Positions 4,988 through 56,045 of a stretch of 64,000 bases of DNA are shown here, one piece after another (the first letter of the stretch is position 1; every line of letters starts with the position of its first letter). Under the pieces are notes generated by a model, which had not been told where the DNA came from, ran no database searches, and saw only the letters and a program-made list of their open reading frames with translations. This stretch comes from Treponema sp. (GTDB lineage Bacteria > Spirochaetota > Spirochaetia > Treponematales > Treponemataceae), in contig JAKSTI010000006.1 in the NCBI GenBank assembly GCA_024402665.1, positions 1-64,000 of the forward strand, in the 5' to 3' direction. The translations under genes were made by a program, and so were the position numbers.

Positions 4988-6334
4988 TTATTTTACAACA
5001 AATCCAAAAAATCTTGCGTTCAGGTCTTCAGTTGAATCAGGTTCCGGGATTATATAGAAACTTTCAACAGAATCTTTCTGAATACCAAGTTTACTGTATT
5101 TAATTTTGATTGTTTTTTCTTTATTTTTTGTTGTCTCAAATTTATAATCGGCAGATTTTCCGTCTTTTTCCACTACCCTGAAAATATATTTATTACCGTC
5201 TCCAATTACTATAAAAGAAAGTTTTTTTCCGTTCTGAAAGAAATTAAGCAATTGTGGCGAGATTTGTACCGGCTGCTGTTTTTCTGCTTCTTCTGATGTT
5301 AGTGTTTTTCCACTGATTTTAATTGACTGATAATCAAACTTCTTGTATCTGATTGTAGCTGCTTCAACAGAATAAGATTTTGCGGTCTGCCAGTTTTTTG
5401 CATCTGTAAAAGGGCTGCCATTTTTTAATTCCAGATTTTTTGCCTTAACAACTTTTTCTTTTTCAAGAACGTTTGTCTTTTTAACTGGGATTCTTGCGTC
5501 TATTCCTAAAGAGAATTCTAAGTGACCTAATCCAGAGGTAATAAAATTATTGAATCTGACATCAGCTCGTAAATCTGCGTAATCTGTAACTCTAAAACCG
5601 CTTTTTAAGGCTAGACAAAAATTGTTGTCTGCAAAAGATGGAGCCTGAGTGTCTATAAATGAATATGCAAATTCAAAACCAAAGAAAGGGGCAAAATATT
5701 CCCAGGTTGGAACAAGCGTTACTGAAGTTACAACTGCCAGTTCCTGATTAAATCCTTCAGAAGGATTGAATCTTGGAATGTACAATAAACCAATTCCGCC
5801 GTTAAAGAAATTCCAGGTAAAATAATCTGCCTCTGCACGGATAAAAATGGCGCCTTTAAACTGATCTTCAAAAGAATCTGGGAATATTGAAACTCCGGCG
5901 TGAACATAAGAAAAGTTTGCGGGTCTCTGGATTCTGACTTCTGTTACAGGAATCTCTTTTTCTCCAGGAGGAATCACATCATCAGAAGTGATTTCAAACT
6001 CCATATATGCTGATTGCGTTTTTTTTCCAAGAACGTTGAATGTGCTTACAGAAATTCTATATTGCCCGACTTCAAGTTCAACTGTTACTTCGCAATCTTT
6101 TGTTATTTCAGAGAAATAAAGTTTCCATTCTGAGTTGTCTGATTTGACACTCTGATTATTTTCAACAGGACTTTCATCCAGCTGTTTTTTTTCAATATCT
6201 ATCTGATACTTACGGGAATTTTCTACAGGCGCCCAGGAAAAAAGCCTTATTGCGGTTGGAACTGTTTCCTGTGCAGTGAGTGATGTGAGAAAAAATAATG
6301 TTGATAAAAATAATAAAAATACTTTCTTCAACAA
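4988..6334 (-). CDS. Probable outer-membrane beta-barrel protein
   Basis: 448 residues with a signal peptide (KKVFLLFLSTLFFLTSLTAQ). A fibronectin-like sandwich follows at about 25-115, then a region of alternating hydrophobic and aromatic strands (about 135-280), ending in strands such as HLEFSLGIDARIPV that suggest a barrel or half barrel, and a C-terminal globular part rich in Lys and Phe. It resembles conserved hypothetical treponemal surface proteins but I cannot name a family. The start is TTG at 6334: no ATG is near, the signal peptide begins directly there, and AGAGGA lies seven bases upstream. It is the first gene of the operon with the cyclase and FecR-domain genes. Confidence 0.65.
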   Translation of the reverse strand: MLKKVFLLFLSTLFFLTSLTAQETVPTAIRLFSWAPVENSRKYQIDIEKKQLDESPVENNQSVKSDNSEWKLYFSEITKDCEVTVELEVGQYRISVSTFNVLGKKTQSAYMEFEITSDDVIPPGEKEIPVTEVRIQRPANFSYVHAGVSIFPDSFEDQFKGAIFIRAEADYFTWNFFNGGIGLLYIPRFNPSEGFNQELAVVTSVTLVPTWEYFAPFFGFEFAYSFIDTQAPSFADNNFCLALKSGFRVTDYADLRADVRFNNFITSGLGHLEFSLGIDARIPVKKTNVLEKEKVVKAKNLELKNGSPFTDAKNWQTAKSYSVEAATIRYKKFDYQSIKISGKTLTSEEAEKQQPVQISPQLLNFFQNGKKLSFIVIGDGNKYIFRVVEKDGKSADYKFETTKNKEKTIKIKYSKLGIQKDSVESFYIIPEPDSTEDLNARFFGFVVK

Positions 6335-51930: not shown

Positions 51931-53736
51931 ATGTATTCAAAAGACAATCCTAGAACTTCAAGAGATAATCCTGAATCTAGTTTACCAGTTGAAAATACAC
52001 ACGCTGCTTTTTCAACTGGTAAGCCATTCCCTGAAAAAAAGACAAACCTTTTACCTGCCATGGGCTGGAACAGCTGGAACGCTTTTGGAACCGGAAACAC
52101 AGAAGCCCTTACAAAACAGATGGCAGACAAAATCCTTGAACTTGGCCTTGATAAACTTGGCTATAAATATCTTGTACTTGATGATGGCTGTTATTTTCCA
52201 GAACGAATAGACGGCCGCCTTTCTAATGAAACTTTAAAATTCCCATCTGGATTCAGAGCACTTACTGATTATATTCATTCTAAAAATCTGAAATTTGGTA
52301 TGTATAATGACATTGGTACAAATCTATGTGCCGGTAGTGCTGTTGGAACCTGTGGTTATGAAGATCTTGATGCCCAAAGTTATGCAGAATGGGATATTGA
52401 TTTTCTTAAAGTTGATAACTGCTACTATCTTTGGGATAATGCAACTTTTTCTAACAAAGAAAATGCCCGCTATTCATATGCTCAAAATATTAAAAGTGTG
52501 AAAATTCAGGGAACAAATGTTCAGTTTGATTTTGATGCTGTAAAAGACGGGAAACTTCTTGGATTGCGTGCAGAAAAAACAGATGACTTTGTTACAAAAA
52601 TCGGGACTTTTGACGGAACAAATACTGGAACAACACCTGTAGGAGACAGATTTGGAGAACTGGCTTTTGAAGTTGAAGTTCAGGACGATGGTGAATACAG
52701 TCTTTTTGTTGAATATGCCAGCGGAAAAGAAGAAGGTTGTGGTCAGTGGCTTCAGGTGGCTGTTGGTGAAGAAAAAAATGAAATCAGATATTTTGATCAG
52801 CTTTTGCCAGAAACCGCTTCTTCAACAGAATTCAGATTTAGTGACGGAATAAAAATCAATCTTAAAAAAGGGAAAAATCTTGTTCGCTTAATGAATCACC
52901 GCAGACAGGAAAATGTTCTTGCTTCTTACGGGGCAATGTTCTACGGACTTCAGAAAGCAAAACCTGGTAACAATATTATTCTTTCTATCTGTGAATGGGG
53001 AAAAACTCATCCTCAAAACTGGGGATACAAAGTTGGAAATTCCTGGCGTATTTTGAACGACATTACTTTTAATGTTGGTGCAGACGGAAATCCTGGAAAA
53101 GGCGAATGGGGAAATCCTGGAACACAGAGCATTGCTTCTCAGTATAATAAAGCTGTTGTTATGGATGAATTTGCTGGTCTTGAAAAAGGCTGGAATGATC
53201 CTGATATGATGGTTATTGGTATGGACGGAATCACAACTACTATGTCCAAAACTCATATGACAATGTGGTGCATGATGAACTCTCCTCTTATGCTTGGACT
53301 TGATTTGCGACGTGTTTCAAAAGGCGATGAACTTTACAATATTATTGCAAACGCTGATGCAATTAAGTTGAATCAGGATGGACTTGGCATTCAGGCAAAA
53401 CGAATCTGGAGTTCTCTGGAAGCTGACAAACCGGATACAACTTATATTACTAATAACAACCGTTCCGATATTCTTGTAAAACCTCTTGAAAATGGGGATT
53501 TTGCACTTTCATTTATAAATCTTAGTGATAATAAATCTGGTGAATTAAAAATTGATGCAGAAACAATACTGAAATTTGCCGGTTCAAAAATGAAAAACTG
53601 CAATGAAATTAGAAAGGCTGACAGTTTCAGAATTTTTGATATCTGGACAAAGGAATCTTCTGTTGTAAAAAGTAAAACTTTCTGCTGCAAATCTCTTGAA
53701 CCATACGACAGCTGGACAATCAGAGTTTCTTTATGA
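51931..53736 (+). CDS. GH27 alpha-galactosidase with inserted CBM-like module
   Basis: 601 residues. Retaining alpha-galactosidase or alpha-N-acetylgalactosaminidase fold: PAMGWNSWNAFG, YLVLDDGCY, MYNDIGTNLC, nucleophile Asp162 in DFLKVDNCY, acid/base Asp423 in WNDPDMM. No signal peptide, so it acts in the cytoplasm. Between the nucleophile and SICEWGKTHPQNWG the barrel is interrupted by about 150 residues (about 185-335) with a jelly-roll carbohydrate-binding look (DDGEYSLFVEYASG, INLKKGKNLVRLMNH). The first 40 residues are atypical and encoded over a perfect palindrome at 51982-52022. The start follows the GT8 stop by three bases with a poor ribosome binding site; a later start is possible. 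Confidence 0.88.
   Translation: MYSKDNPRTSRDNPESSLPVENTHAAFSTGKPFPEKKTNLLPAMGWNSWNAFGTGNTEALTKQMADKILELGLDKLGYKYLVLDDGCYFPERIDGRLSNETLKFPSGFRALTDYIHSKNLKFGMYNDIGTNLCAGSAVGTCGYEDLDAQSYAEWDIDFLKVDNCYYLWDNATFSNKENARYSYAQNIKSVKIQGTNVQFDFDAVKDGKLLGLRAEKTDDFVTKIGTFDGTNTGTTPVGDRFGELAFEVEVQDDGEYSLFVEYASGKEEGCGQWLQVAVGEEKNEIRYFDQLLPETASSTEFRFSDGIKINLKKGKNLVRLMNHRRQENVLASYGAMFYGLQKAKPGNNIILSICEWGKTHPQNWGYKVGNSWRILNDITFNVGADGNPGKGEWGNPGTQSIASQYNKAVVMDEFAGLEKGWNDPDMMVIGMDGITTTMSKTHMTMWCMMNSPLMLGLDLRRVSKGDELYNIIANADAIKLNQDGLGIQAKRIWSSLEADKPDTTYITNNNRSDILVKPLENGDFALSFINLSDNKSGELKIDAETILKFAGSKMKNCNEIRKADSFRIFDIWTKESSVVKSKTFCCKSLEPYDSWTIRVSL
51982..52022. repeat. Perfect 14-bp palindrome in the 5' coding region
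   Basis: TTACCAGTTGAAAA (51982-51995) and TTTTCAACTGGTAA (52009-52022) are exact inverted copies around 13 bases. It encodes LPVENTHAAFSTGK before the conserved GH27 start. It has no T tract. It may be an inserted palindromic element or a hairpin that controls translation of the alpha-galactosidase. Confidence 0.75.
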
Positions 53737-54371
53737 TTTTGATTCAGGATTTTCAAAAAATGATTAAAGATAAGTGCCGGGAAGCTGGCCTTATGTTTAG
53801 TGAAATTCTTGATTCCCAGGATTTAGTTAATATTACATCTCCACTTACAAAAATTACTGCTGCCAGAATATGCCACAACGCACTGCAAACCATCTTAAAA
53901 GAAAAAGATGAAGAAAACTGGAGTGCCGCATGGCTGTTACACGACATTTACGACTGCCACACCTGCGTTCCCCATATTGCACAGACTTACGCAAAAGGCA
54001 TTATTGAACCAGTTTCCACCCAGCCCTTAATTTTTGGCCACACAGAACAAGTCTCTGAAGAACAAGGCCGCCTTTACGCAGAAAGACTTTTTAATCCCAA
54101 TTTGCGGTTAAAAATTGAACATTACGAAAACAACCAGATTAAATATATTTCTGAAAAATCGGCAAAATCCCTTTTTGATGTAAAAATCATAGATTTAGCC
54201 GCCGGCCCACTTTCCCTAAAAGAAATCAACCAGAATCCCTATAGCGCAGATCCAGATTTAGGCCGCAATATAGCATTAAAGTGCAAAAAAGGCTATCAAA
54301 GCACACTGGCAGCTAATATTCTCCTGAAAGCGGGATTTATTAATATTTTTGTTATAAAAAATGACTCGTAA
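53733..54371 (+). CDS. Protein with C-terminal rhodanese-like domain
   Basis: 212 residues. The last 90 residues have a rhodanese-like order ending in IALKCKKGYQSTLAANILLKAGF, where Cys starts the active-site loop CKKGYQ and the last strand is NIFVIKN. The N-terminal 120 residues are unassigned; they contain LLHDIYDCHTCVPHIA with a CxxC-like pair. A sulfur-transfer or sulfide-handling role is possible. The gene overlaps the GH27 stop (ATGA), so it is translated with it. Its last codons and stop (GAC TCG TAA) come from the structured repeat beginning at 54358, implying the natural 3' end was altered or the repeat inserted there. Confidence 0.6.
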   Translation: MILIQDFQKMIKDKCREAGLMFSEILDSQDLVNITSPLTKITAARICHNALQTILKEKDEENWSAAWLLHDIYDCHTCVPHIAQTYAKGIIEPVSTQPLIFGHTEQVSEEQGRLYAERLFNPNLRLKIEHYENNQIKYISEKSAKSLFDVKIIDLAAGPLSLKEINQNPYSADPDLGRNIALKCKKGYQSTLAANILLKAGFINIFVIKNDS

Positions 54372-54455
54372 GGCGGAATGATAGTTTCCATGCCGACTTA
54401 CGCGTCAAGCGACGCTAGTCAGCGGTTTTGTGATACATAAAAAGCTGGTAGGTGC
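54358..54455. repeat. Structured repeat, copy 1
   Basis: The core 54358-54430 matches 54537-54609 at 70 of 73 positions, and 54435-54455 matches 54614-54634 with one difference. It contains two hairpins: GTAAG.CGG against CCG.CTTAC, and GCGTC-AAGC-GACGC, enclosed by TGACT/AGTCA. The left outer arm seen in copy 2 is missing here because the copy abuts the 3' end of the rhodanese-like gene. Confidence 0.85.
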
Positions 54456-54502
54456 ACGGTTCTGTATTAAAAAAAACAAAGCAGTTTTATATAAGTGAGA
54501 TT

Positions 54503-54643
54503 GGAATAAAAGCACCGGGAGGCGTTTATGGAGCTCAAAATGACTCGTAAGGCGGAATGATAGTTTCCATACCGACTTACGCGTCAAGCGACGCTAGCTA
54601 GCGGTTTTGAGCTCCATAAAAAGCCGGTAGGTGCTTTTATTCC
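54503..54643. repeat. Structured repeat, copy 2 with complete arms
   Basis: Complementary arms GGAATAAAAGCACC (54503-54516) with GGTGCTTTTATTCC (54630-54643) and TATGGAGCTCAAAA (54527-54540) with TTTTGAGCTCCATA (54605-54618) enclose the two conserved hairpins (54547-54580 and 54581-54594). The whole unit of 141 bases should fold into a multi-branched cruciform or RNA. It fills the gap between convergent genes. Confidence 0.85.
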
Positions 54644-54659
54644 ATATTCTAAATTAATT

Positions 54660-56045
54660 TTAAACTGTTTTGATTTTTTTAATCCATTTGCCGCTGCGGA
54701 GACGGAGGACGCACCAGAAAGCTTTAGCTATTTGATCAAATTTCAACGCCATATATATCCAGAACGCCGACATATGAAACACAAATCCCGCCACAATCCC
54801 CAGCGGAATAGATAATACCCAAAGATAAATATTATCTGCCACCATCAGCATTATTGTATCCCCGCCACCACGCAAAACGCCTTTTGTCATAATGCTATTT
54901 GTAGCCTGGAACAACAGAATAATACTGATTGCATTCATAAGCTGGCGTGCAGTTTGTGCAGTTTCTGCTGTTACGTTATAAGATTTAATTACAATAGAAC
55001 TGATAATCAGAACACAAGCAGAAGCAATAATTCCAAGAACAATTCCCAGACCAAGGAATCCGTAGCCCTGTTTCATTGTTTTTTCTTTATCGCCTTCACC
55101 TAAGGTCTGGCCAGTTACAATTGCACCAGACTGGGAAACTCCCTGAATTACAACTGTACTCATCTGCTGGGTAACACTTGTAATTGCATTTGCGGCAACA
55201 AAAGTCTGACCAAGGCGGCCAATTACCATAGCAACAGCATTGTTTCCCAAAGCAAGAATTCCATCACTAACAAGAACAGGAATACTGATTTTAATATATT
55301 CTCCAAGAAGATCTTTTGTTTTCATGAGAATATGTTTAATTCTAAAACCGATTTTTTTGTCTACAAAAATTAGGTAACCGCAGATTATTGCTGTTTCAAA
55401 AATGCGTGAAATCAAAGTTCCTAATGCAGCTCCGGCAACACCCATGGCAGGGAATCCAAATTTACCAAAAATCAGAACATAGTTTGCAGCAAGATTAATA
55501 GAAAAAGCACCAATTGATACAATCAAAGGGAGATTCACCTGGCCAACACTTCGCAAAGCAATTGTACATACCAGAGAAAGACCTAAGAAAAAATAAGTTG
55601 GAATTGAATAACGAAGATAAACAATTCCAAGTTCCACAATCTGTTCTCCAGGATCATACATCTGCATGATTCCATTTGGAAAAAAGAATGTTCCAAGGGC
55701 AAATAAAGCGGCAAGGAACGTAACAAGACGCAGCATAATACAGATTGTCTTTTTAAGAGAAATATCGGCTTTTTCAGGTTCGGAACTTTTCATTCCCCAG
55801 TAGCGGGAAATCAGAACAGAAGCACCCATCCCAATTCCCATACAGAAAATATGGAATATGCTTATAAAAGAATTAGCCAGTGATGTGGCAGAAAGTTCTG
55901 CTTCACCAAGAGAGCCTACCATAATTGTATCAAGCATATTAACGCCAATGGCAATCATACTTTGAAGGGCAATTGGTAAAGAGAGCGTTAATACTTTTCT
56001 ATAAAAACTTCTGTCATCAATAAATAACTTTTTTAAAAGATTCAT
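54660..56045 (-). CDS. MATE family efflux transporter
   Basis: 461 residues, 12 membrane helices in two related halves. VLTLSLPIALQSMIAIGVNMLDTIMVGSLGE in the first half and ISIPVLVSDGILALGNNAVAMVIGRLG in the second are the internal repeat; GMGASVLISRYWG and QGVSQSGAIVTGQTLGEGD are the matching helix 2 regions. It exports cationic drugs, flavins or metabolites against sodium or protons. The ATG at 56045 lacks a strong ribosome binding site and lies ten bases after the stop of a MATE pseudogene, so it was perhaps once translationally coupled to it. Confidence 0.92.
   Translation of the reverse strand: MNLLKKLFIDDRSFYRKVLTLSLPIALQSMIAIGVNMLDTIMVGSLGEAELSATSLANSFISIFHIFCMGIGMGASVLISRYWGMKSSEPEKADISLKKTICIMLRLVTFLAALFALGTFFFPNGIMQMYDPGEQIVELGIVYLRYSIPTYFFLGLSLVCTIALRSVGQVNLPLIVSIGAFSINLAANYVLIFGKFGFPAMGVAGAALGTLISRIFETAIICGYLIFVDKKIGFRIKHILMKTKDLLGEYIKISIPVLVSDGILALGNNAVAMVIGRLGQTFVAANAITSVTQQMSTVVIQGVSQSGAIVTGQTLGEGDKEKTMKQGYGFLGLGIVLGIIASACVLIISSIVIKSYNVTAETAQTARQLMNAISIILLFQATNSIMTKGVLRGGGDTIMLMVADNIYLWVLSIPLGIVAGFVFHMSAFWIYMALKFDQIAKAFWCVLRLRSGKWIKKIKTV

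Follow-up and report, generated by a model that had tools for sequence, protein, structure and literature searches.

The repeat lies in a window of 64,000 nucleotides of Treponema sp. DNA (the window being the whole stretch analysed), where two convergent genes meet: an ORF of 212 aa with no Pfam match (53733-54371, + strand) and a MATE transporter gene (54660-56045, - strand; Pfam PF01554). The structured two-copy repeat reported in the preliminary description was confirmed. Two direct copies of 98 nt (54358-54455 and 54537-54634) share 93% identity and are spaced 179 bp from start to start. The genes are convergent as described, but the repeat is not wholly intergenic and overlaps both gene ends: the last four codons and the stop of the upstream ORF (54357-54371; AAA AAT GAC TCG TAA) are encoded by copy 1, and the 3' end of the MATE gene is covered by the right outer arm of copy 2. 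Since these codons come from copy 1, the original C-terminus of the upstream ORF may have been replaced by the insertion; the protein is conserved too poorly to date this event.

Copy 2 with its outer arms is an element of 224 bp (54463-54686; all parts are on the + strand), as delimited by arm complementarity, the family model and the fold. Its outermost helix, P0, consists of the arms 54463-54492 and 54657-54686 (30 nt, 83% complementary and paired in the fold), a pair absent from the preliminary description; the right arm is the one that overlaps the MATE gene. Inside P0 lies P1 (54502-54516, TGGAATAAAAGCACC, with 54630-54644), which was found in the fold and is covarying helix 1, followed by a purine-rich internal loop recognised from alignments of copies (5' strand 54517-54524, GGGAGGCG; 3' strand 54621-54629, AAGCCGGTA) and by P2, whose 5' strand (54525-54540, TTTATGGAGCTCAAAA; 16 nt) is 100% complementary to its 3' strand (54605-54620). 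The longer arms 54502-54527 and 54619-54644 are 81% complementary. P2 encloses the hairpins P3 (54541-54586), with the conserved loop ATAGTTTC, and P4 (54587-54604, AGCGACGCTAGCTAGCGG); both are seen in the fold and the alignment, and P3 in the covariation as well. When folded as DNA, 54502-54644 reached -49.4 kcal/mol (z = -13.5), which none of 200 shuffles equalled, and the 224-nt unit formed a single hairpin (z = -13.4). The stretch of copy 1 (54358-54455) folds far less well (z of about -2). This copy is truncated: it keeps P3, P4 and the right side and has lost the left P1/P2 arm, and it scored 73 bits with the family model versus 125.5 bits for copy 2.

Distribution of the family and covariation of its core

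BLAST with copy 2 located about 20 further places in the assembly to which the window belongs (1.89 Mb, 67% complete). A covariance model built from 19 copies of this genome (R1) detected 23 strong copies in the same MAG and found the element in 46 of the 98 genomes sampled in the genus, a scan whose copy counts are lower bounds. G075 has 46 copies and G063 has 48. No copy was detected in about half of the 98 genomes, complete ones included. A broader model used across the order (R2) matched 50 of 294 genomes, which belong to 3 of 83 genera, all of one family, so that two genera besides Treponema carry the element. In a named genome collection, all matches to a 24-base pattern were in MAGs with the title Treponema, Treponemataceae, Spirochaetaceae or Spirochaetales, and many of these MAGs were sampled from the gut of horse, cattle or yak. 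Collections of plasmids, phages and viruses contained no match to the element. Arrays of the whole element in tandem (unit about 235-238 bp) were seen at contig ends (L034:1-530, L125:6707-7241), and the copy numbers in MAGs are thus underestimates. Many Treponema MAG contigs terminate within element copies, and the element accounts for assembly breaks in these MAGs.

Nearly all copies are intergenic. They follow no orientation rule with respect to the genes beside them, and divergent and co-directional gene contexts are at least as frequent as convergent ones, so that the convergent setting in the window is not a property of the family. Gene-linked cis-regulation was dropped on account of the missing orientation rule.

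The core of about 135-160 bp has the same architecture throughout. From outside inward, the P0 arms are followed by an A+T-rich stretch, P1, the internal loop, P2 and a three-way junction with P3 and P4. The internal loop is asymmetric and conserved on both strands (5' CGNGARGGA, 3' GACYGGNAG), and P2 usually closes with CAAAA/TTTTG. P3 carries a conserved apex, ATAGTTNC, where many species have an extra small hairpin, and is joined by a short linker (A or AG) to P4, which occurs as GC-GAC-GCTAGC-TA-GC, with GATATC or GGTACC, or as a perfect palindrome. In one copy (L063/L013, G000:C31:48662-48801), the extra hairpins CGAGTTTTCCTAGAAAACTCG and TTCGACGTTAGTCGAA are inserted in the 3' P2 arm. 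Inspection of the alignment showed no conserved complementarity between the P3 loop and the internal loop, and the idea of a pseudoknot joining the two was therefore given up.

Across 56 core copies, 93.6% of the cells are paired, and 41 of 42 pairs have undergone double compensatory changes. The covariation score was 0.665, whereas shuffles scored 0.19 and slid controls about 0.1. The unit thus folds into one long hairpin with a three-way junction at its centre, which is kept by paired changes, and the proposal in the preliminary description that the fold is maintained was borne out. These data show that pairing in the core is maintained, by selection or by template-switch correction within the palindrome; template switching inside a palindrome could be a source of the paired changes as well as selection. 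Since the internal loop and the P3 loop stay unpaired and conserved, and template-switch correction would erase them, the data argue for selection on at least these two loops.

Insertion sites and element ends

Occupied sites that are empty in relatives were found at two loci. The site downstream of rnhA is filled in the window's own genome, whereas the element is absent in 14 relatives with the same gene, most of which have just a short spacer before the next gene; in G089 the element stands at this site in the opposite orientation. Between the genes for a DTW protein and lptC, the own genome has a copy with perfect outer arms, and in five syntenic relatives (G082, G089, G153, G160, G129) a short spacer that lacks both core and arms stands in its place. 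An element pair upstream of purE in the own genome is absent from all four relatives read there.

The ends of the element are known to the base in G132 (Treponema sp. RGIG338) alone, where a nearly identical arm occurs at about 35 places. The unit of this genome is 263 bp and ends in the inverted repeats GCCCGAAATTCGA...TTCGAAATTCGAAC (the right end is also written TTCGAAC). An exact 6-bp direct repeat flanks 6 of the 11 copies with both ends readable (TATAAA, TAATTT, TAAGTA, TACTTA, TATTTA, TAAATA), in comparison with 6-bp matches in 2 of 110 mismatched left/right flank pairs. A scan of other genomes recovered almost no target duplications, as expected if the insertions are older or their ends were misjudged. 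Units span 220-265 bp, and no ORF common to the copies was seen. It follows that a gene-less unit of this size has been inserted at many intergenic sites, with a 6-bp duplication in the recently amplified lineage. Two remnants of roughly 51 bp in G132 (L327 near 5114-5164 and L328 near 1842-1892) consist of two joined ends with no core and look like deletions inside the hairpin.

The core and the ends behave differently. Around cores that are 95-96% identical, the flanks are no more alike than background (57% identity), and the two flanks of one copy are nevertheless complementary to each other (permutation p of 5e-5 in the own genome, 5e-5 in G063 and 0.004 in G075). The ends are specific to lineages: GCCCGAAATTCGA in G132, CGGGAATATCCC in G333, and ACGTACG in G103 and G029. 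Insertion into pre-existing terminator hairpins was rejected as the source of the complementary flanks, since the empty DTW/lptC sites lack those arms; the G132 arms are the element's own ends, so this explanation is not needed for all copies. Nor is the outer palindrome a separate stand-alone repeat, since the exact arm occurs in the own genome only around the element. Thus, either the ends turn over fast while recombination keeps the cores alike, or the core moves on different arms. If one transposase read terminal repeats, the ends would not be expected to differ between lineages. It is conceivable, though on balance rather unlikely, that the core with its three-way junction acts as the mobile signal and that a recombinase recognises folded DNA and not fixed end sequences. 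If so, the same core would ride different hairpin arms and exchange its ends from lineage to lineage, guided by structure where MITEs are guided by sequence.

Where copies form close inverted pairs (gap 33-221 bp), all ten pairs are head to head (-,+) and none is tail to tail (p = 0.002; G029:C30, G029:C65, G029:C76, G056:C63, G075:C1:207943, G008:C71, G010:C205, G039:C1, G089:C31, G117:C13). Ten other close pairs are tandem. The bias suggests that insertion is polar, 5' of a copy already present, or that the dimer has a function.

Interpretation and rival explanations

One alternative is that many loci produce structured RNAs of one family (sRNA, 3'-UTR stabiliser or terminator) and that dispersal is a by-product. 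It would account for the strong covariation and for the conserved unpaired loops (ATAGTTTC, CGNGARGGA/GACYGGNAG). P2 also leans this way, with 39 G-U versus 5 A-C cells, and the + strand may therefore act as RNA or single-stranded DNA. Against it, G-U makes up 2.6% of stem cells overall, whereas 12 tRNAs from the same loci contained 10% G-U with no A-C. P3, the most variable helix and among the best paired, has 8 G-U and 6 A-C among 739 Watson-Crick cells; these counts are indications, since the copies are not independent. The element had no match at the gathering score in Rfam 15, and lax thresholds gave irrelevant matches only. Its copies follow no orientation rule toward genes, divergent sites being common, and their flanks are unrelated, so that no shared flank could act as a promoter. 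Since the stems nearly avoid G-U and neither an orientation rule nor a shared promoter-like flank exists, the indications are that folded DNA, rather than RNA, is the main form that matters, and we regard an RNA family as quite unlikely. The hint of a discrete transcript in the preliminary description accordingly gave way to dispersed mobile DNA, to which the empty sites and target duplications also point. One locus (L100:141-438) gave a strong Rfam match to 5_ureB_sRNA (98 bits), which may reflect the conservation of the overlapping urease gene and not the RNA.

DDE transposases leave a fixed short target duplication, and Y1 enzymes leave none. Movement of a REP/BIME-type element by a tyrosine transposase (RAYT, Y1) is for this reason difficult to reconcile with the 6-bp duplication, although the own genome has two Y1 (RAYT-like) genes of about 250 aa (G000:C31:86110-86829, L040; C34:77433-77771, L041). 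The element was present at 0 of 30 Y1 loci across the genus, and the genomes with the highest copy numbers (G063, G075, G035, G050) had no Y1 match. The own Y1 gene examined (L040) sits among GGGGACAGACCCC / GGGGTCTGTCCCC palindromes, a REP family distinct from the element. Y1 genes and element are therefore not associated, and even though the head-to-head dimers and clusters of the element recall REP arrangements (PMC3733652), this mode of mobilisation is largely refuted and very unlikely. More plausible, though still improbable, is a domesticated BIME-like DNA site for a nucleoid or topology protein, which was spread by transposition and is now kept for the host. The conservation of the core across species while the ends drift and the almost exclusively intergenic copies would fit such a site; the absence of a detected copy from about half of the genus genomes indicates that it is dispensable, and we know of no protein that binds the folded core. 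A simple local duplication with chance hairpins agrees with the tandem position of the two copies in the window. The core is not confined to this locus, however: the tens of copies per genome and the compensatory changes exclude it for practical purposes.

The element is thus most probably a MITE-like mobile DNA that is non-autonomous, conserved in its core and different between lineages at its ends (probability about 0.78). Since the duplication is fixed at 6 bp, a DDE-type transposase acting in trans would carry out the cutting and joining of the element. Neither the end-sequence matches nor 1.2 Mb of G132 contained an autonomous copy with ends of the G132 type; the end-sequence search of this genome gave only the two end-to-end remnants of roughly 51 bp. 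The folded DNA may take the form of a cruciform, or of a strand exposed in replication or transposition. The core would serve as a recognition or regulatory structure, with outer arms that turn over between lineages. As near-identical cores sit between unrelated arms, the cores within a genome are probably kept alike by recombination or re-insertion. The repeat in the window, explained at first as an isolated structure that might be transcribed, is now read as part of a dispersed family of mobile DNA elements whose folded core is conserved. The element is apparently undescribed and is abundant among uncultured Treponema of gut and rumen. In the own genome, several copies are surrounded by arrays of a 19-bp palindrome, TGACATCTAGTRRATGTCA (L033:2520-2930, L035:40-400), which constitute a third repeat family.

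Comparison with known systems

In an ordinary MITE the ends stay constant and the middle is free to change, the opposite of the pattern found here. By its features the element behaves as a MITE: it is short and non-coding, has inverted-repeat ends and a 6-bp target duplication (both in G132), and shows filled and empty sites (at two loci). A search of the open literature, with subscription papers outside its scope, gave no matching description among Treponema MITEs or palindromic repeats. The earlier view that known classes fit poorly was upheld for tRNA, RAYT-REP and attC, and no Rfam family fits either. Like integron attC sites, the element conserves structure above sequence; unlike them, it has no cassette arrays, its copies stand singly between unrelated genes, and inspection of its ends and contexts found no R''/R' boxes or cassette context.

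GTAG/CGTC REPs, BIMEs and REPINs resemble the element in being palindromic, intergenic and of high copy number, with head-to-head dimers and tandem clusters (PMC3733652, PMC3116915). REP units measure 20-40 bp and bear a GTAG or CGTC tag, the GTAG ones with RAYT (PMC3733652, PMC3116915), whereas the element is 220-265 bp with neither a fixed tag nor Y1 association. Its GTAG before P4 is not a REP tag; it belongs to the P3 stem and becomes TCAAG, TGCAG or TCCAG along with its partner.

Nearest in style is YPAL/RU-2 of Yersinia, likened here by its published description and not by sequence (PMC2229807). It is about 168 bp, not A+T-rich, intergenic and contains internal inverted repeats; it makes target duplications, its targets lie at or beside dyad symmetry, and empty and filled sites are known (PMC2229807). 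Its target duplications are 3-26 bp, in contrast to the fixed 6 bp in G132, its description mentions no comparable three-way-junction core, and the host phylum differs (PMC2229807). The Correia/NEMIS, RUP and ERIC MITEs are, like the element, small, gene-less and intergenic, with inverted-repeat ends, a target duplication and a long stem-loop fold (PMC2229807, PMC10969869). Bacterial MITEs have a TA dinucleotide at their termini, and the element has TANNTA-like 6-bp targets; their conserved ends can reveal the transposase, whereas in the element the core is conserved and the ends vary by lineage (PMC2229807, PMC10969869). With hundreds of copies and near-perfect Watson-Crick covariation, the element is a test case for the maintenance of a DNA fold in a transposon, the item maintained here being the DNA fold, as against an RNA fold or an end sequence.
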